Below are positions 4,558 through 18,577 of a DNA stretch of 21,106 bases, one piece after another. The position numbers were made by a program, and so were the translations under genes. Position 1 is the first letter of the stretch, and each line of letters begins with the position of its first letter. This DNA is from a virus, in IMG/VR virus record IMGVR_UViG_3300022413_000049, positions 1 through 21,106 of that record, one strand, 5' to 3'. Under the pieces are notes generated by a model. The model made no database searches and was not told the origin of the DNA. It saw nothing but the letters and a program-made list of their open reading frames with translations.

Positions 4558-5535
4558 CTAATTGAAATCGGCGCCGTCAGAATCGGCCAAATCGGTTTGT
4601 GTCGCGCTATTCGGCGACGTTAAGCTAGTGCAACCAGTAAACATGCCACTAGAAGCGCCCACCGTCGACGTGGTGTCGAGTGCGCCGATAGTTGTTAATG
4701 CCGAGCAACCAAGAAACATGCCGGCAAAATTTGTCCCTGCCTCGGTTTGCAAATTTCCAATAGTCGTGACCGATGTGCAGCCGCGAAAAGTATCAATAAA
4801 ATTTGTACAAGCTCCAAAATCGTAACCACCGAAACTGGTTAGACTAGTGCAGCCCTCCCATGATTCACGCAAACTAGTTGCCGATGAAAGATCGATAGCG
4901 GGAAATGATGTGATAGCCGTGTCGCGCCAAGCGGAAATAGCATTATCGATTGAATCTAAATTATAGTTTCCGAAACTGGTTAAAGCTGACCCTCTAAACG
5001 CGCTTGAGAAATTAGTTGCCGAACTAAGGTCGCTATCCGTAACAGTAAATGTAGTCAGCCCGGAAGCGCCAGAAAATGCTTGGTTAAGGGACGTTATATT
5101 AACGCCGCTATCGATAGTAAAACTTTCAATTGCTGTTTTATTCGTACAAGTATTACCCAAGCTTTTTAAATTCGCGCCGCCTATTATTGAGCAAGTTTTA
5201 ATCTGATTATCTACGATTCTAAATGCTGTAATATTTGTCGATTCCGTTTCGACAATTACGTCGCCCGTCGGAACAACGCCTGGGCTGACGGTTCCAGAGC
5301 TATAAGTTATCGGCGAACCATCTCCCCAATCGACAGTAAAATCGACACCCCCCGTTGTTATTAATGTTAACCGCAAAGCCCCCGGTGAGGCGACCGGAAC
5401 AAGCGTAGCTTTAAACGACGGGCCAGCCTTTATCAAGGTAGCATCTGATCCGGTAACCAAGAAGCTGCCCGCATCGGCCGCCAGCGGCCCCGCAGCCGGC
5501 AGCGCTGTTTTGAAAGGCCCGAGCGATTCTACCAT
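4558..5535 (-). CDS. Leucine-rich-repeat tail protein, receptor-binding candidate
   Basis: The protein has 325 residues. Near the N-terminus lies one copy of the motif ADAGSFLVTGSDATL (about residues 20-34), the same motif that builds the 928-residue repeat protein elsewhere in this genome. Next come beta-rich sequence and a PKD-like segment with FTVDWGDGSPITY. From about residue 110 to 310 there are BspA/DUF285-type leucine-rich repeats: FSGASGLTTF, FRGSALTSF, WEGCTSLTSF, FRGCTSVTTIG, FLGCSALTTIG, FTGCTSLTSP. BspA-like repeats mediate adhesion in bacterial and protist surface proteins, and in phages they occur in tail fibres. It is the last late gene, after the tail-tip genes, the usual place for receptor-binding proteins. 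The assignment as fibre or adhesin is inference. Confidence 0.75.
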   Translation of the reverse strand: MVESLGPFKTALPAAGPLAADAGSFLVTGSDATLIKAGPSFKATLVPVASPGALRLTLITTGGVDFTVDWGDGSPITYSSGTVSPGVVPTGDVIVETESTNITAFRIVDNQIKTCSIIGGANLKSLGNTCTNKTAIESFTIDSGVNITSLNQAFSGASGLTTFTVTDSDLSSATNFSSAFRGSALTSFGNYNLDSIDNAISAWRDTAITSFPAIDLSSATSLRESWEGCTSLTSFGGYDFGACTNFIDTFRGCTSVTTIGNLQTEAGTNFAGMFLGCSALTTIGALDTTSTVGASSGMFTGCTSLTSPNSATQTDLADSDGADFN

Positions 5536-5858: not shown

Positions 5859-6688
5859 TAGGCGACAGTCAGAGTTGCACCCGGCGACAAAATTCTGAAC
5901 GCTGCAGAATTCGCAACCAGAGGATAGCCGATCTCGGTTAGCGAAAATCCAAGCGGCGAAAAATTAACCGTCCGGTATACGTCCCATTCGCGAATGCCAG
6001 TTGTCAAATCTAGCCCGTCATCGGCCGATGCGGTGATTTCTTCAGGCGGGTATTGTGTTTTACCTTTGAATTGCCAACCTTCGGCGCGATATGTAAATGT
6101 ATAGCTAACTCGAAAATTGTCACCGTTTTGATCGGCATCGATCGCACTACATAAAATCGTTTTCGGTGGGTATCCATTCCACGTTGCCGAGTTTATTTTC
6201 CCTAAATATTTCGTTATGTCGTTAGTCGGAAAACCCGTCGCCGTATATTCAAAATTGATCGACATGCGAGGCCGCTCGACCTCGGCTGTAAATCGCTGAC
6301 TAGCAAACCCGCCGCCGAAAATTTGATAGCTCGAGTCCATCGGCTGGCCGTTAATATCTTCGTGTGTTTCTTCGACCGAAAGGCCCGACGAAACCCGAGC
6401 CTCTGCCGTGCTCGAGGTCGTCGTCGTCCCGCTATCCTTGTAATAAGAAAGGGTAATTTTAAACTGCCCGCCGCCGAGCGGTGAGCATGTAATGTCGTTG
6501 AGCGTGATCGTCGATATATCTGGATGAGCGTCGCCGATATCGGGCAGGCCCCCATCGTTAATCGCATTAAAGAGTACCTGGGCGGCCGTGCCAGCAACGC
6601 CACTCACCAGGGCGATGCGCTGTGCTCGATAACCCTCTTTAGTCAGCGAAATCTGGCTACTATCTTTTAGGTCAAGTTTCGCTGCCAT
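5858..6688 (-). CDS. Tail-tip structural protein downstream of tape measure
   Basis: This encodes 276 residues, mostly beta-strand with low charge. The N-terminus (LDLKDSSQISLTKEGYRAQR) is followed by a domain with KFKITLSYYKDSG-like strands and then a C-terminal domain (about 165-276), with YPPKTILCSAIDADQNG and YTFTYRAEGWQFKG. A strand followed by 'YxFxYRAEGW' is a pattern seen in tail proteins next to small tape measure genes in other small siphophages. Given its position directly after the tape measure, a distal tail or baseplate hub role is likely. It is far smaller than lambda gpM/L/J combined, and no gpJ-like hub follows. Function is inferred from position. Confidence 0.7.
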   Translation of the reverse strand: MAAKLDLKDSSQISLTKEGYRAQRIALVSGVAGTAAQVLFNAINDGGLPDIGDAHPDISTITLNDITCSPLGGGQFKITLSYYKDSGTTTTSSTAEARVSSGLSVEETHEDINGQPMDSSYQIFGGGFASQRFTAEVERPRMSINFEYTATGFPTNDITKYLGKINSATWNGYPPKTILCSAIDADQNGDNFRVSYTFTYRAEGWQFKGKTQYPPEEITASADDGLDLTTGIREWDVYRTVNFSPLGFSLTEIGYPLVANSAAFRILSPGATLTVA

Positions 6689-7797
6689 TACCCTGCTACC
6701 GCCGCGCCTTTTTCAACTGCATTAGTTATCCCGTCGGCGATCTGCCGCAGTAGACCGGTTTGCTCGTCTAGCTGTTTATTTTTTTGATTTGGTAAACCGG
6801 CCTGCTGCTCTCGAATGCGCTCCAGAGCCGGCTGGCCGGTCTGTGCGCGGTTAAAATCGCCGAGTAAATAATCCTCGGCGCCTGGCCCGATATCGCCGGC
6901 ACCAGGTAGAAAACCGCTGCGCCCGCCCGTGGTAAAATCGCCGGCGATCAGCCGGCCGATCCCGTCGGTAATCGAATCGATTGCACCGAGCATCGAGGCC
7001 AGCCCGCCGAGCGCGTCGCCGGTAAACGCTGCGACCTTGCTCGCGTCCATTGCGTTTATTAGATCGGTCATGTTGTTGACCGTCGTCGAGATTGTCGCAT
7101 TCAATCCGGCCTCGCCGATTTTTACCTGCAGCAAGTCGATCGCGGTCGCGAAATTATCAAAAGCCGGCGCGACATTATTCATTTGATCAGACATCGCGCC
7201 AGCAAAATTAACCCTGCCGATACTCTGCAAATAGCCGGTTATCTCCTCGGCATTCTTTCCGATCGTGGTCGCCACACCCTGAAATGTGAGCGTTACCTGG
7301 TCGCCTTGCGATGAGGCCTTGATGCCGAACTCCTTTAAACGCTCAAACTCGCCGGTGCTAGCATCAGCGACCGCCTCGATCATTTGATCTAAGCTTTTAC
7401 CCATCGCCGACGCCGTGTTGCCATAGGATGTGATCGCCTCGGCCGACGGATCGAGGCCGAGCGCCTTCAGTTTGATAAAAGCGCCGGTAACCTCCTCGAG
7501 CGCAAAGGGTGTTGTCGTCGCAAACCTGACGATCTCGTCGAACGTCCGGCCGGCCTCGTCAGCCGACCCGGTTAGCGTCTTTAAGCTTGATTTCATGGTT
7601 TGAAATTGAATGTTGGTATCGATCAGGCCGCGACCGAGTAAACCGAAACCAGCGGCGCCGGCCAGGCCGGCGATCGCGCCCGTTAGTTGAGCTGTGCCAA
7701 CCGCGATGCCTTTCAGACTACCTTTAACCGTGCTAAAGGCGCCCTTCGTTTTATCCTTTGCGGTTAAAATAAACCGGGTTTCGTGGGTGCTAGCCAT
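6688..7797 (-). CDS. Tail tape measure protein (short)
   Basis: The protein has 369 residues. The N-terminal half matches the tape measure N-terminal domain: TRFILTAKDKTKGAFSTVKGSLKGI (residues 6-30), a hydrophobic alanine/glycine helix (about 35-62), and the signature NIQFQTMKSSLKTLTGSADEAGRTFDEIVRFATTTPFALEEVTGAFIKLKALGLDPS, followed by helical segments and a C-terminal coiled coil. Such proteins set tail length at about 1.5 angstrom per residue, so the tail would be only about 55 nm, short for a siphovirus. The ATG at 7797 lies eight bases inside the end of the T frame. No peptidase or lysozyme domain is visible. Confidence 0.88.
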   Translation of the reverse strand: MASTHETRFILTAKDKTKGAFSTVKGSLKGIAVGTAQLTGAIAGLAGAAGFGLLGRGLIDTNIQFQTMKSSLKTLTGSADEAGRTFDEIVRFATTTPFALEEVTGAFIKLKALGLDPSAEAITSYGNTASAMGKSLDQMIEAVADASTGEFERLKEFGIKASSQGDQVTLTFQGVATTIGKNAEEITGYLQSIGRVNFAGAMSDQMNNVAPAFDNFATAIDLLQVKIGEAGLNATISTTVNNMTDLINAMDASKVAAFTGDALGGLASMLGAIDSITDGIGRLIAGDFTTGGRSGFLPGAGDIGPGAEDYLLGDFNRAQTGQPALERIREQQAGLPNQKNKQLDEQTGLLRQIADGITNAVEKGAAVAG

Positions 7798-13757: not shown

Positions 13758-14060
13758 TTATGCAACCACGTTGAAAAAATCAGGATCGACCGTATAAAAA
13801 ACCTGCGTCGGCGAAAACGTGACTTTGGCTCGATAACTCCAAATTCCTTTTTGATCGATATCGGCTGCAACCGTGTTGTAAGCGATTAGCCCGTCGGTGC
13901 CATCGGTGATAAAGGCCGCAGTTTTTTCGACAGTCTCGCCACCTGGTTTAGTCAAAATAATCGCGGTATCCGTTGCCGCGCTAATATCGAGATCCGCGTC
14001 AGATTCTTGCACCGTGACCTGGATCGATGTGCCTAAATCGTTAATAGTTATTTCATCCAT
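13758..14060 (-). CDS. Small Ig-like/BppU_N-type phage protein
   Basis: This encodes 100 residues, starting eight bases inside the end of the repeat gene. The pattern 'VTVQESDADLDISAATDTAIILTKPGGETVEKTAAFITDGTDGLIAYNTVAADIDQKGIWSYRAKVTFSP' is a known small phage family: a DV-S-A-x-T-x-x-x-I-x-x-x-K-P-G-G-x-x core, then a TDGTDGxIxY strand and a GxWxYRAxV strand. It resembles the N-terminal domain of baseplate BppU. It is probably an immunoglobulin-like structural accessory. Which particle part carries it is not shown; its neighbours are a repeat-rich structural protein and the connector. Confidence 0.72.
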   Translation of the reverse strand: MDEITINDLGTSIQVTVQESDADLDISAATDTAIILTKPGGETVEKTAAFITDGTDGLIAYNTVAADIDQKGIWSYRAKVTFSPTQVFYTVDPDFFNVVA

Positions 14061-16839
14061 TCGATATATCTCCGATTTGCGTCAAGGTTTGTTTTATGGA
14101 TTGATCAGCGCTAAGTCGCTGGATAATATTTTGACCGCCGGCCAACTGAAGCTCGATTTTTTGCGATCCCGAAATTATTTGATATATCACCCGAACTTGG
14201 CTATCGATCAAAGTCGCGTCAAACCCGGTAACCGCAATAATTCCTAGTTCAGCAGCAAAAGAATAATCGACTTGCAAATTAGCGTCGGTGCCAATAATGC
14301 CGAGATTACCGCTATCGCATTCGATAACGTAACCGACCGCTAAAACGGCATCGGTGCCGGTGATCGTGACGCTGCCAGCCTCGGCCAATATCTCAACATC
14401 CCCGCCAGTCGTTAGCGCGGCATCGAAACCGGTAATCGCGATCGCGCCAGCGTCAGCGGCGACTACCTGGTTGAGCTCGAGGCTGGCGGCGGCGCCCGCG
14501 ATCGTGACGCTGCCGGCGTCAGCGGCGACTACCTGGTTGAGCTCGAGCCCGGCGGCGGCGCCGGTGATCGTGATCGCGGCGGCGTCAGCGGCGACTACCT
14601 GGTTGAGCTCGAGGCTGGCGATCGCGCCCGCGATCGTGACGCTGCCGGCGTCAGCGGCGACTACCTGGTTGAGCTCGAGCCCGGCGGCGGCGCCGGTGAT
14701 CGCGATCGCGCCGGCCTCGGCGGCGACTACCTGGTTGAGCTCGAGGCTGGCGATCGCGCCCGCGATCGTGACGCTGCCAGCCTCGGCCAGGATCTCAAAA
14801 TCACCGGCCGTGGTTAAAGCGGCATCGAAACCGGTGATCGTGATCGCGGCGGCGTCAGCGGCGACTACCTGGTTGAGCTCGAGGCTGGCGATCGCGCCCG
14901 CGATCGTGACGCTGCCGGCGTCAGCGGCGACTACCTGGTTGAGCTCGAGCCCGGCGGCGGCGCCGGTGATCGCGATCGCGCCGGCCTCGGCGGCGACTAC
15001 CTGGTTGAGCTCGAGGCTGGCGGCGGCGCCGGTGATCGCGATCGCGCCGGCCTCGGCGGCGACTACCTGGTTGAGCTCGAGGCTGGCGGCGGCGCCGGTG
15101 ATCGCGATCGCGCCCGCGTCAGCGGCGACTACCTGGTTGAGCTCGAGGCCGGCGGCGGCGCCGGTGATCGCGATCGCGCCCGCGTCAGCGGCGACTACCT
15201 GGTTGAGCTCGAGGCCGGCGATCGCGCCCGCGATCGTGACGTTGCCAGCCTCGGCCAGGATCTCAAAATCACCGGCCGTGGTTAAAGCGGCATCGAAACC
15301 CGCGATCGTGACGCTGCCGGCGGCGGCGGCGACTACCTGGTTGAGCTCGAGGCCGGCGGCGGCGCCGGTGATCGTGATCGCGCCAGCCTCGGCAGTTAGG
15401 ACAGGATTGCCGCCGCCTACGGTTAACGTGGCGTCGATTCCGGTTACTGAATACGAGCCCGCATTTGCATTTAAAACTCGGTGCCATTCGGCTAATGCTT
15501 CCGGCGGGATAACCGCGCCGCCAGATGTTCTTATGTGCGCTGGATATCGGCCAATATCATCGGCCGTGAATTGATAAGCACCGAAAACCACGTCGCCTTG
15601 TGCGGCGACGCCAGTTACCCATGTTGCCGACGCGCCAGCCGCAGCGTAAAAAAACAAACGCAAAAGATTATTACCTTGATTGATAGACTTGGCAGTGATT
15701 CTTATTCGCCACCAGTCACCCACATCGATAACGCCGGCTGATGCATTATCGCTCTCAAAAAGCGGCGTTTCGAATTCCCCGGTTGACGTGTCCAGCTTTA
15801 AAATGTTGGATTCTGGGCTTACTCCCAGATAACGCATATCAAAATACGCAAATCGAGTAGTGCGCGGAATGGAATCCTTTAAAATGTAAGCAGTGAACGT
15901 GTAGGTGTTTCCGATATCGTCGCCGCTAAACCAGCTCGCGTTTAACTGTTCACCCTCGAACGCCCCCGCATTATCATCGCCGATCCGATCCAGCTCCAAA
16001 TTACCAAACGGATCGGCTGCAACATTGCCGGCCTCGGTCGGCGACCCGATGGGTGTCCAATTAAGCGCGTTATGAGACGTTGATTCGAGATTTTCACGAT
16101 TAATTGCGAAAACACCCGCCAGAGCCGCTAAGGTTCGCGGCTGTATTAATGTCGCGGCGCTGCCGGTTACGGAATACGAACCAGCGTCGGCAGTTAAAAC
16201 AGGGTTGCTAACTATGGTTAACGTGGCGTCGAAACCCGTAACCGCGAAACTCCCAGCGTCAGCAGCTATTGCGCGACCTCTGGACAAGGTTGCCGCGACA
16301 CCCGTAACAGAATACGAACCGGCATCGGCGGTGATCGTATAATCCTTAGTGCCGGTGACGACAACCTCGACCTCAGAAATCGTAAAAATCATCGCGGCGG
16401 GCATGCCGTCTTGTTTTAAGGTGCAACGGATTTGCAGCCCGTTTAATTCTGATGCCGTCCAGTCGCTATTCCAGCCAGTATCGTTAAATGATTGATTAAC
16501 CCATGACGTTGTAAAATATGAACCGTCGACCACGGTTCCTTGAGCGGTGCCGCCAATCAGTAAATCAACTCCGAAATAATCCTTGCCGGTGCCCGAGCCA
16601 GGTTCGCCAACTCGCGCGCGGAAAGTAACATTAGTTATTGTGTCGCCGTCGACAAATGTCGTGCTGGTAAAATCAAAGGTTATGGTATCGGTTTCGACGC
16701 CGTGATCTGGCGTTACCGTGTCGACGGTTAGTGTATCGTTAGGGGTGTCGACGCCCTGGTCGATATTCGTGACAGCGCCGCTTAAATCACTTGTTCCTGA
16801 TACCGTGTAACCATTCGGCAATAGGATTTCAGTCGCCAT
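14053..16839 (-). CDS. Giant repeat protein, probable fibre or virion surface protein
   Basis: The 928-residue protein is built of a beta domain (about residues 1-165), three degenerate copies of the motif ADAGSYSVTGxAATL (170-245), a jelly-roll-like carbohydrate-binding-type domain (about 249-435, with WFSGDDIGNTYTFTAYILKD and DVGDWWRIRITAKS), a long array of 22-residue repeats (about 455-870; consensus VAADAGAIAITGAAAGLELNQV), and a C-terminal part with VRVIYQIISGSQKIELQLAGGQ. Each repeat likely forms one turn of a beta structure, so the protein would be long. It has no enzyme motif. It lies between the cysteine-rich and Ig-like genes, close to the head genes rather than the tail tip, so head fibre, neck fibre or side fibre are all open. 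One motif copy also occurs in the LRR protein. Confidence 0.78.
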   Translation of the reverse strand: MATEILLPNGYTVSGTSDLSGAVTNIDQGVDTPNDTLTVDTVTPDHGVETDTITFDFTSTTFVDGDTITNVTFRARVGEPGSGTGKDYFGVDLLIGGTAQGTVVDGSYFTTSWVNQSFNDTGWNSDWTASELNGLQIRCTLKQDGMPAAMIFTISEVEVVVTGTKDYTITADAGSYSVTGVAATLSRGRAIAADAGSFAVTGFDATLTIVSNPVLTADAGSYSVTGSAATLIQPRTLAALAGVFAINRENLESTSHNALNWTPIGSPTEAGNVAADPFGNLELDRIGDDNAGAFEGEQLNASWFSGDDIGNTYTFTAYILKDSIPRTTRFAYFDMRYLGVSPESNILKLDTSTGEFETPLFESDNASAGVIDVGDWWRIRITAKSINQGNNLLRLFFYAAAGASATWVTGVAAQGDVVFGAYQFTADDIGRYPAHIRTSGGAVIPPEALAEWHRVLNANAGSYSVTGIDATLTVGGGNPVLTAEAGAITITGAAAGLELNQVVAAAAGSVTIAGFDAALTTAGDFEILAEAGNVTIAGAIAGLELNQVVAADAGAIAITGAAAGLELNQVVAADAGAIAITGAAASLELNQVVAAEAGAIAITGAAASLELNQVVAAEAGAIAITGAAAGLELNQVVAADAGSVTIAGAIASLELNQVVAADAAAITITGFDAALTTAGDFEILAEAGSVTIAGAIASLELNQVVAAEAGAIAITGAAAGLELNQVVAADAGSVTIAGAIASLELNQVVAADAAAITITGAAAGLELNQVVAADAGSVTIAGAAASLELNQVVAADAGAIAITGFDAALTTGGDVEILAEAGSVTITGTDAVLAVGYVIECDSGNLGIIGTDANLQVDYSFAAELGIIAVTGFDATLIDSQVRVIYQIISGSQKIELQLAGGQNIIQRLSADQSIKQTLTQIGDISNG
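14461..15396. repeat. Twelve copies of a 66-bp tandem repeat
   Basis: The block starting GACTACCTGGTTGAGCTCGA occurs at 14461, 14527, 14593, 14659, 14725, 14863, 14929, 14995, 15061, 15127, 15193 and 15331. Spacing is exactly 66 bp, except for two gaps of 138 bp (66+72) where another module is inserted. Copies are nearly identical at DNA level and encode 22-residue repeats. Such an array would vary in length by recombination and could be mis-assembled. Confidence 0.95.
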
Positions 16840-17143
16840 CGTTTACGAACTGCCAGCAGCAGCCCCCCGTCTTATTTTTTCGTTGGAATTTTTCAGGAAT
16901 ATTGTGCGGCCAATTAACGCAACGGAATTTGAAAACCTCGCGGATATTCATACCACCGATTTGAACTGTTTTATCGTTCGACGTAATTTTCATTTGGCGA
17001 TCGCCGGCCATCAGAGAACAACCGCGCTCCGGGTTTCGATTTGTTCGATAAATGCAATCGTCGCGCTGTTCGTTTGGAAAGGTAGGCGACTCGCGACAGC
17101 ATGCGCCGTCGCATCGCCGCACCTTTTTTAATAGCAAAGGCAT
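16829..17143 (-). CDS. Cysteine-rich small protein, possible metal site
   Basis: This encodes 104 residues. Eight cysteines: C11-x3-C15-C16-x13-C30-x11-C42 in the N-terminal half (RRCDGACCRESPTFP), and 'FRCVNWP' and 'GGCCWQF' at the C-terminal side. The C-x3-CC-x13-C pattern is like YkgJ-type Fe-S or zinc cluster proteins. It could bind a metal or form disulfides. The gene overlaps the repeat gene's start by 11 bases and follows the 141-residue structural gene. It has no membrane segment. Family by pattern only; a role in folding or assembling neighbouring structural proteins is speculation. Confidence 0.7.
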   Translation of the reverse strand: MPLLLKKVRRCDGACCRESPTFPNEQRDDCIYRTNRNPERGCSLMAGDRQMKITSNDKTVQIGGMNIREVFKFRCVNWPHNIPEKFQRKNKTGGCCWQFVNDGD

Positions 17144-17155
17144 CAGCCTCGCGAT

Positions 17156-17581
17156 TTACGTGACAGTAAAAATCGAGGTTCCGAAATCAACCGTAAACGA
17201 TTCGCCGTTTGCCAGGGTAACGCCCGAGCCATAATCCCACCAGCCGATTAGCGGATCGAGCGGCGAGGACGGGGTGTCGTTATACAAAATAACATATTGA
17301 AAAGTCGCGACCGCACCCGTTGCGTTTAATACAACATCGGTACCGCTGACGTCCCATGTTCCCGCCGGCGTTTCGGCGCCGACGTTAGTTACATCGGCCG
17401 GCACGGTTTCGGTGATGTTGGTATAGCTTATTTGCGTGACGTCGGCCAATACCGCATCGGTAGCCGCAACCGGCGCCGTATTTGATAAACAGATATTCAA
17501 CGTGCTGCCTGCAGTTGTCAAAACGTGAACGCCCGCCGCCAGGTCGACAGCAAATTGATCGTATTTATTAAAAGTTGCCAT
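17156..17581 (-). CDS. Recurrent beta-rich phage protein, structural candidate
   Basis: This encodes 141 residues with an AGAGG Shine-Dalgarno sequence. It matches a widespread uncharacterised family: an FAVDLAAGVHVLTTAGSTLNICLSNTAPVAATDAVLADVTQI opening, then a beta segment with 'GTWDVSGTDVVLNATGAVATFQYVILYNDTPSSPLDPLIGWWDYGSGVTLANGESFTVDF' (the 'FRYVVLYND...PLIGWWDYG' signature). It is thought to be a virion component, in other phages often near capsid or tail fibre genes. It is rich in small residues and low in charge, as for a decoration or fibre protein. No function is shown. Confidence 0.75.
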   Translation of the reverse strand: MATFNKYDQFAVDLAAGVHVLTTAGSTLNICLSNTAPVAATDAVLADVTQISYTNITETVPADVTNVGAETPAGTWDVSGTDVVLNATGAVATFQYVILYNDTPSSPLDPLIGWWDYGSGVTLANGESFTVDFGTSIFTVT

Positions 17582-18245: not shown

Positions 18246-18296
18246 TTTGCGGAATATACAGCCGACCTTGGCCCCGCCGCTGCCACTTTGCGGAAT
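18242..18296. repeat. Paired 14-bp motif, 41 bp apart
   Basis: CCATTTTGCGGAAT (18242-18255) and CCACTTTGCGGAAT (18283-18296) differ at one base and are separated by 41 bp, close to four helical turns. They span the gap between the Mor-like regulator and the holin-like gene. They could be the operator pair of that regulator controlling lysis genes, but no promoter is obvious. Confidence 0.55.
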
Positions 18297-18577
18297 TACT
18301 TACTAATGACCCGGTAAAAATGTGTCCGCGACATTTTATAGCGCCGCCGGATTTCAGCGCCGTTGCGGCCGTTAAATTCATTTTTTATTTTTTTAATCAC
18401 GGCTGGCCGAAATTTTTGATAACCGCGTTTCAACATCACCCGAACGCCCCCGTAATCTTCGCGCGCTTCTTCAAAATAGCCGCTGACAATACTCTCGGCT
18501 TTTTTTTCTTCGATACCATTCTCGACCAGGCGCAGGATCAACCCGATTTCGAATATTTCTATAATGTCATCGGCCAT
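18296..18577 (-). CDS. Mor-like transcriptional activator
   Basis: The protein has 93 residues. The C-terminal half has the pattern of the Mor/C family of phage Mu activators: a GGVRVMLKRGYQKFRPAVIKKIKNEFNGRNGAEIRRRYKMSRTHFYRVI stretch, in which 'F-x-G-R-N-x-x-E-I-x-R-x-Y-x-x-S-x-x-x-x-Y-x-V-I' is the family's DNA-binding helix-turn-helix. Mor activates middle or late promoters with weak -35 boxes by contacting RNA polymerase. The gene overlaps the terL end by 11 bases, and downstream of it lie lysis and structural genes. It thus could switch on the downstream late block. N-terminal part is acidic and helical (dimerisation). Confidence 0.78.
   Translation of the reverse strand: MADDIIEIFEIGLILRLVENGIEEKKAESIVSGYFEEAREDYGGVRVMLKRGYQKFRPAVIKKIKNEFNGRNGAEIRRRYKMSRTHFYRVISK

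Follow-up and report, generated by a model that had tools for sequence, protein, structure and literature searches.

Among the described systems closest to the gene treated here are the BACON-domain tandem repeats of the crAss-like phages and the collagen-like side tail fibre proteins of E. coli prophages. According to the sections of the report on which we draw (PMC6949934), the BACON repeats belong to a probably tail-associated protein that has grown by internal duplication, the tail association having been deduced from neighbouring genes. The likeness to the present gene lies in tandem repeats arising from internal duplication and in the probable tail protein of those phages; however, the BACON arrays consist of whole domains that, in the same sections (PMC6949934), are duplicated singly and conserved in order in cluster 1, whereas the array described below has a coil of 22 amino acids as its unit, is homogeneous in its DNA, has undergone multi-coil block duplication and matches no Pfam family. 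In the collagen-like proteins, as stated in the part of the report used here (PMC3368898), the measured length follows the residue number, and they resemble the present case in having a repeat stalk in a probable phage fibre. The collagen-like stalk is a triple helix, while the present one has a period of 22 residues, is predicted to be a single-chain β-solenoid and gains far less length per residue; Gly-X-Y triplets are absent from the translation, in which a period of 22-24 is found instead.

With respect to the predicted fold, the nearest known structures are β-helical proteins. The AlphaFold2 model of the protein matches the tailspikes CBA120 TSP1 (4oj5, Z 12.6) and phiAB6 (5jsd, Z 10.3), which have the parallel β-helix fold, at about 10% identity, near-identical coils being found only in the present protein. 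The best structural match is the β-helical ice-binding region 3p4g (Z 24.8, rmsd 3.0, 287 residues aligned), by its title a Ca2+-dependent bacterial protein, at 9-10% identity. The same structure is the best match (Z 24.7, rmsd 3.5, 286 aligned) for the model of a relative, L079, which has the same shape although its coils are diverged in DNA. Foldseek gave no match in the PDB at E≤0.001, and the matches to autotransporters and enzymes were taken as a shared fold only.

The window, that is, the whole virus record of 21,106 bases, carries on its minus strand an open reading frame for a repeat protein of 928 amino acids (14053-16839), and within it lies a 936-bp tandem array of twelve 66-bp and two 72-bp units. 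A sequence-only reading had noticed that twelve 66-bp units form runs of 5, 6 and 1, broken by two 72-bp pieces, and the same 936 bp were recovered here, its span 14461-15396 being the codon-phased span 14416-15351 (minus strand) moved by 45 bp. The runs stand in the order 5, 6, 1 on the plus strand and 1, 6, 5 from the N- to the C-terminus, with the 72-bp units between. Unit alignment on the minus strand thus gives 66-bp unit 1 alone (15286-15351), the first copy of the 72-bp (24-residue) unit (15214-15285), a run of six 66-bp units (14818-15213), the second 72-bp copy (14746-14817), identical to the first at 70/72 positions, and a run of five 66-bp units (14416-14745). The earlier list lacks a third 72-bp unit at 14344-14415 on the same strand, which has diverged and shares 54/72 positions with the other two. 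Tandem Repeats Finder reported a period of 66 with 14.3 copies and a score of 1032, which excludes a chance origin of the array, and also periods of 132, 402 and 468, the last two corresponding to a 72-bp unit together with five and with six 66-bp units, respectively. The 72-bp piece had been regarded as a different module, but it is a version of the 66-bp repeat whose linker has two extra residues, so that the period becomes 24 instead of 22 residues (peptide LTTAGDFEILAEAGSVTIAGAIAS versus LELNQVVAADAGSVTIAGAIAS in the 66-bp unit); its last 42 nucleotides are identical to unit 631 at 39 positions, and the old diverged coils of the protein include some of 24 residues (residues 191-214 and 457-480).

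The 66-bp units are 71-100% identical in pairwise comparison (mean 85%), and the description of them as near-identical is true of the first 26 nucleotides, invariant in all twelve, but not of the whole unit, for all 23 variable sites fall within the remaining 40 nucleotides. An invariant run of this length was reached in none of 20,000 permutations of the sites, which are not independent here. The unit cores exist in a few versions combined in varied ways, that is, they are mosaic, and the four-gamete test fails for 61 of the 190 biallelic site pairs. Units far apart in the array are no less alike than neighbouring ones, and identity is highest at lag 5 (0.89). In addition, 192 bp are duplicated exactly (copy A, 14561-14752; copy B, 14831-15022, 270 bp from copy A; both on the minus strand); this is the longest exact repeat, all the others in the array being 96 bp or shorter. 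Such a pattern fits recombination between units, in single-unit and block steps and with exchange that would spread one linker through the array. The homogeneity, the mosaic units and the exact duplicate together give good support to the earlier proposal that the array expanded recently, through unequal or intragenic recombination and with duplication of whole blocks, a route that we infer from the pattern of the units.

The remainder of the protein is encoded on the same strand and places the array in an older context. The N-terminal region (residues 1-165; 16345-16839) is followed by three old diverged coils with a GC content of 53-61% (residues 169-236; 16132-16335), an inserted domain of about 210 residues (residues 245-455; 15475-16107) and the edge coils (residues 457-496; 15352-15471), of which the final 16 residues are already like the array core, up to 41/48 nucleotides. 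On the C-terminal side of the array there are further old diverged coils (residues 833-877; 14209-14343; GC 43-48%). Since coils of both lengths recur in diverged form at residues 169-236, 457-496 and 833-877, the array is an expansion within an older run of coils. Family searches gave no sequence match for the N-terminal region or for the inserted domain, the structural matches of the latter being weak (best Z 3.6), and AlphaFold2 gave poor confidence for the N-terminal region and for the greater part of the inserted domain. The whole protein matched no Pfam family at E≤1, the BACON model included, and no known tail-fibre family in Pfam or PHROG; its sole PHROG match is phrog_26170, of unknown function (1e-4).

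AlphaFold2 modelled residues 455-880, approximately, with high confidence (ten-residue mean pLDDT 82-96 across residues 481-860) as three short strands per unit, and each unit of 22 or 24 residues is thus modelled as one coil of a β-solenoid. AlphaFold2 readily builds solenoids from near-perfect repeats, an objection which the model of the diverged L079 answers only in part. The usual rise per solenoid coil is 0.48 nm, and at this value the twelve units would extend for about 6 nm, out of about 9 nm for the modelled solenoid as a whole. Consequently, the suggestion that the number of units sets the fibre length is plausible, with one modelled coil per unit, but the effect would be small, a change of one unit altering the reach by only about 0.5 nm.

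Relatives, namely proteins with 22-residue coils of the AGSYxVTG type, were sought with DNA patterns for the common core, and a motif-chain filter kept at least 79 open reading frames from 249 records, including the window and one GenBank phage; labels such as L079 denote phage loci with these patterns. The family motif has a period of 22-24 residues and a core of the A-G-x-x-x-[VI]-T-G type; it is present in the diverged coils of the window protein on both sides of the array, and in the array units the period is kept but the cores are altered. The filter threshold overlooks short members of the family. In the members scanned the repeat group gave no Pfam or NCBIfam match above curated cut-offs, the weak matches to TraE, Lipocalin_4 and acylphosphatase being read as composition artefacts, and annotated copies are labelled "hypothetical protein". 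Therefore, naming the repeat group and its neighbour phrog_644, described below, would improve the annotation of many metagenomic phages. A scan of bacterial genomes found no array above threshold in 118 loci among the matches listed, and no close relative of the repeat protein or of the phage was found, the best terminase identity being about 43-44%. No published description of the 22-residue coil family was found in titles and abstracts, which is weak evidence of absence as subscription journals are thinly covered there. With 1510 amino acids, a relative in L112 (254-4783) greatly exceeds the window protein in length; its coils number in the dozens and are all diverged in DNA.

Homogeneity was compared among the 58 genes with at least four 22-residue units in the 79 listed open reading frames, and the window array is by far the most DNA-homogeneous and the most GC-shifted of them. 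The identity between units at fourfold sites is 0.841 in the window gene and at most 0.570 among the 57 other genes listed. Unit pairs of at least 95% identity number 14 of 66 in the phase used for comparison (8 of 66 if the units are phased on the codons of the LEL linker) and none in each of the 57 others. The GC content exceeds that of the rest of its record by 0.235, as against a mean of 0.040 (sd 0.058, maximum 0.120) in the others. This exceptional standing may be exaggerated, because assemblies from short reads often break where an array is homogeneous, and such cases are perhaps under-represented in the collection. GC3 is about 0.87-0.91 in the array (14416-15351, minus strand) and about 0.5 elsewhere in the gene; candidate causes are a GC-rich seed, import and biased conversion.

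Copy number could be compared with other members of the family (58 of the 79 genes are complete within their locus), not within the lineage of this phage. Copy number might, as suggested earlier, vary between individuals, and host range perhaps with it; among the relatives, whole-coil changes are seen in two pairs with flanks about 86% identical: L034 and L038 differ by exactly 22 residues (their flank identity is 92.1% over a longer alignment) and L079 and L103 by exactly 220. However, no internal gap of 10 residues or more occurs in the 23 pairs whose flanks reach 92% identity, which come from few clusters and are non-independent, so fast variation is not the habit of the family. In L025, L053, L061, L105 and L116 the flanks are 87-91% identical and the protein only about 50%, with small gaps, which looks like replacement rather than coil change, and at about 70% flank identity repeat proteins of 149 and 312 residues are present. 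The comparison thus points to a coil number that shifts by whole coils, and slowly in the loci sampled. The comparison with the family as a whole strengthens the support for a recent whole-coil expansion in the window.

We lean towards the reading that the gene encodes a structural protein whose solenoid stalk has grown recently by in-frame recombination between coils and probably makes contact with the host. The stalk would be a single-chain β-solenoid, each unit of 22 or 24 residues (66 or 72 bp) forming a coil of three short strands. A GC-rich coil within the old diverged coils would have been multiplied recently by in-frame recombination between coils; units 543-609 would then stem from single-coil steps, the exact 192-bp duplicate from a step that took in a block of several coils, and the mosaic units from exchange between coils. 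As the period is a whole coil, gain or loss of units would keep the frame and the fold and alter the stalk by about 0.48 nm. The stalk would most likely bear adhesive domains, the N-terminal region and the inserted domain, for contact with the host cell.

Several other explanations of the array have to be weighed against this growth by recombination. The array might be an old one held alike by selection on protein and codons, and the coils of most relatives are indeed alike in protein and diverged in DNA. In the window, however, the five fourfold sites in codons 1, 3, 6, 7 and 8 are identical in all 66 unit pairs, whereas 32 of the pairs differ at those in codon 9, 29 at those in codon 11 and 27 at those in codon 18, a split which codon preference alone would not give, and 192 bp are identical at every site, so that selection without recent expansion is very improbable. 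It is also rather unlikely that the assembler made the block duplication or that the true number of units differs: the 192-bp repeat is beyond short k-mers alone at its distance from the copy, and the record is a single IMG/VR contig with no sequencing type stated, but the other exact repeats can be resolved by long k-mers or 150-base reads, and the unit variants are ordered and in frame. Import of a GC-rich block from another genome, instead of growth from resident coils, is suggested by the GC content of the units (0.739, with a GC3 of 0.913, against 0.504 in the rest of the record) and by the main core types, which are all GC-rich. Nevertheless, a search of phage DNA gave nothing but short GC-rich stretches, which covered 13% of the query at most, and one of plasmid DNA covered at most 23% of it, at 66% identity, the linker peptide pattern was found in none of the viral contigs scanned, and the edge coils grade into the array; we regard import as unlikely, if less so than an assembly artefact.

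The case for a place of the protein in the virion comes largely from the neighbouring genes. Around the window gene there are genes for terminase subunits, a Mor-like activator, a head-tail joining protein, a portal and head and tail proteins, and the repeat gene sits between terminase and portal, away from the tail-fibre end. Upstream of it on the minus strand are a small Cys-rich protein of 104 amino acids (16829-17143), at the place of which some relatives have other small Cys-rich proteins, and a phrog_644 protein of 141 amino acids and unknown function (17156-17581, E 3.2e-7). Of the 79 loci listed, 50 have a phrog_644 gene close to the repeat gene and in the same orientation, upstream of it in 48; none of nine terminase or portal relatives has such a gene, nor does any of 118 bacterial contigs among the matches listed. 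A phrog_644 gene also occurs in 16 of 44 other viral loci, several with shorter multi-motif open reading frames; because the threshold overlooks short members, these 44 are not a clean control. phrog_644 is the most constant neighbour of the 22-residue coil proteins (loci such as L010, L011, L013, L039 and L108) and a good candidate for their partner or adaptor. Among the upstream proteins (118 of 131 listed frames plus two from the window, short, cut and doubtful ones having been removed by hand), phrog_644 accounts for 21 of 120, and the others include portal and tail fibre families; the downstream frames, likewise pruned (122 of 138), include head-tail adaptors, scaffolds and head proteases. 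PHROG families annotated as virion structural proteins were matched by at most 3 of 32 aligned members (phrog_12736 two, phrog_10304 one). These few matches and the synteny support the earlier view of a virion surface gene, and the 928-residue protein likely sits in the virion, in the head or in the tail. A head-associated fibre or capsid decoration, instead of a tail fibre or adhesin, is a real possibility, though not the one we prefer, in view of the place between terminase and portal and of the portal, scaffold, head protease and head-tail adaptor families beside the relatives; on the other hand, a separate tail-fibre-like gene adjoins the repeat gene in L010 and L014, and the relative gp72 of EBPR siphovirus 2 comes after a feature "similar to tail protein" and before lysozyme, in a tail-to-lysis stretch. 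The relatives in L013 and L022 have lectin-type or F5/8-type domains, below the Pfam cut-offs, and an adhesive role of the repeat protein is something we infer. Elsewhere on the minus strand of the window, another receptor-binding candidate, a DUF285/BspA-type leucine-rich repeat protein (4558-5535), ends the tail module, a Mor-type late transcription activator (18296-18577) comes directly after the gene of the terminase large subunit, and the tape measure protein (6688-7797) has only 369 amino acids, which suggests a short tail.

The growth of the stalk by whole coils ties a DNA process, recombination of tandem units, to a mechanical outcome, the addition of whole coils to a probable virion rod, and the at least 79 open reading frames form a comparison set for coil number, flank divergence and DNA homogeneity. 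A more speculative extension, which we consider doubtful, is that a widespread unnamed family of phage β-solenoid stalks, together with phrog_644, serves as an adjustable spacer altered by whole coils, and that in this phage frequent recombination homogenises linkers, shuffles cores and raises GC. If so, length and surface would change together, core strands being shuffled round a constant linker, and the high GC of the array would come from biased conversion.

Some features of the array at the DNA level were also considered. An antisense open reading frame of 406 codons over the array (14354-15574, plus strand) is an effect of composition, as 69 of 300 codon shuffles gave one at least as long. 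The sequence GCGATCGC, common in the array, shows no excess outside the gene (7 occurrences against a Markov expectation of 5.4). A role through hairpins was rejected, three 66-bp units folding no more strongly than shuffles. The 72-bp unit at 14746-14817, as single-stranded DNA, folds more strongly than its shuffles (z -2.59; 1/200).
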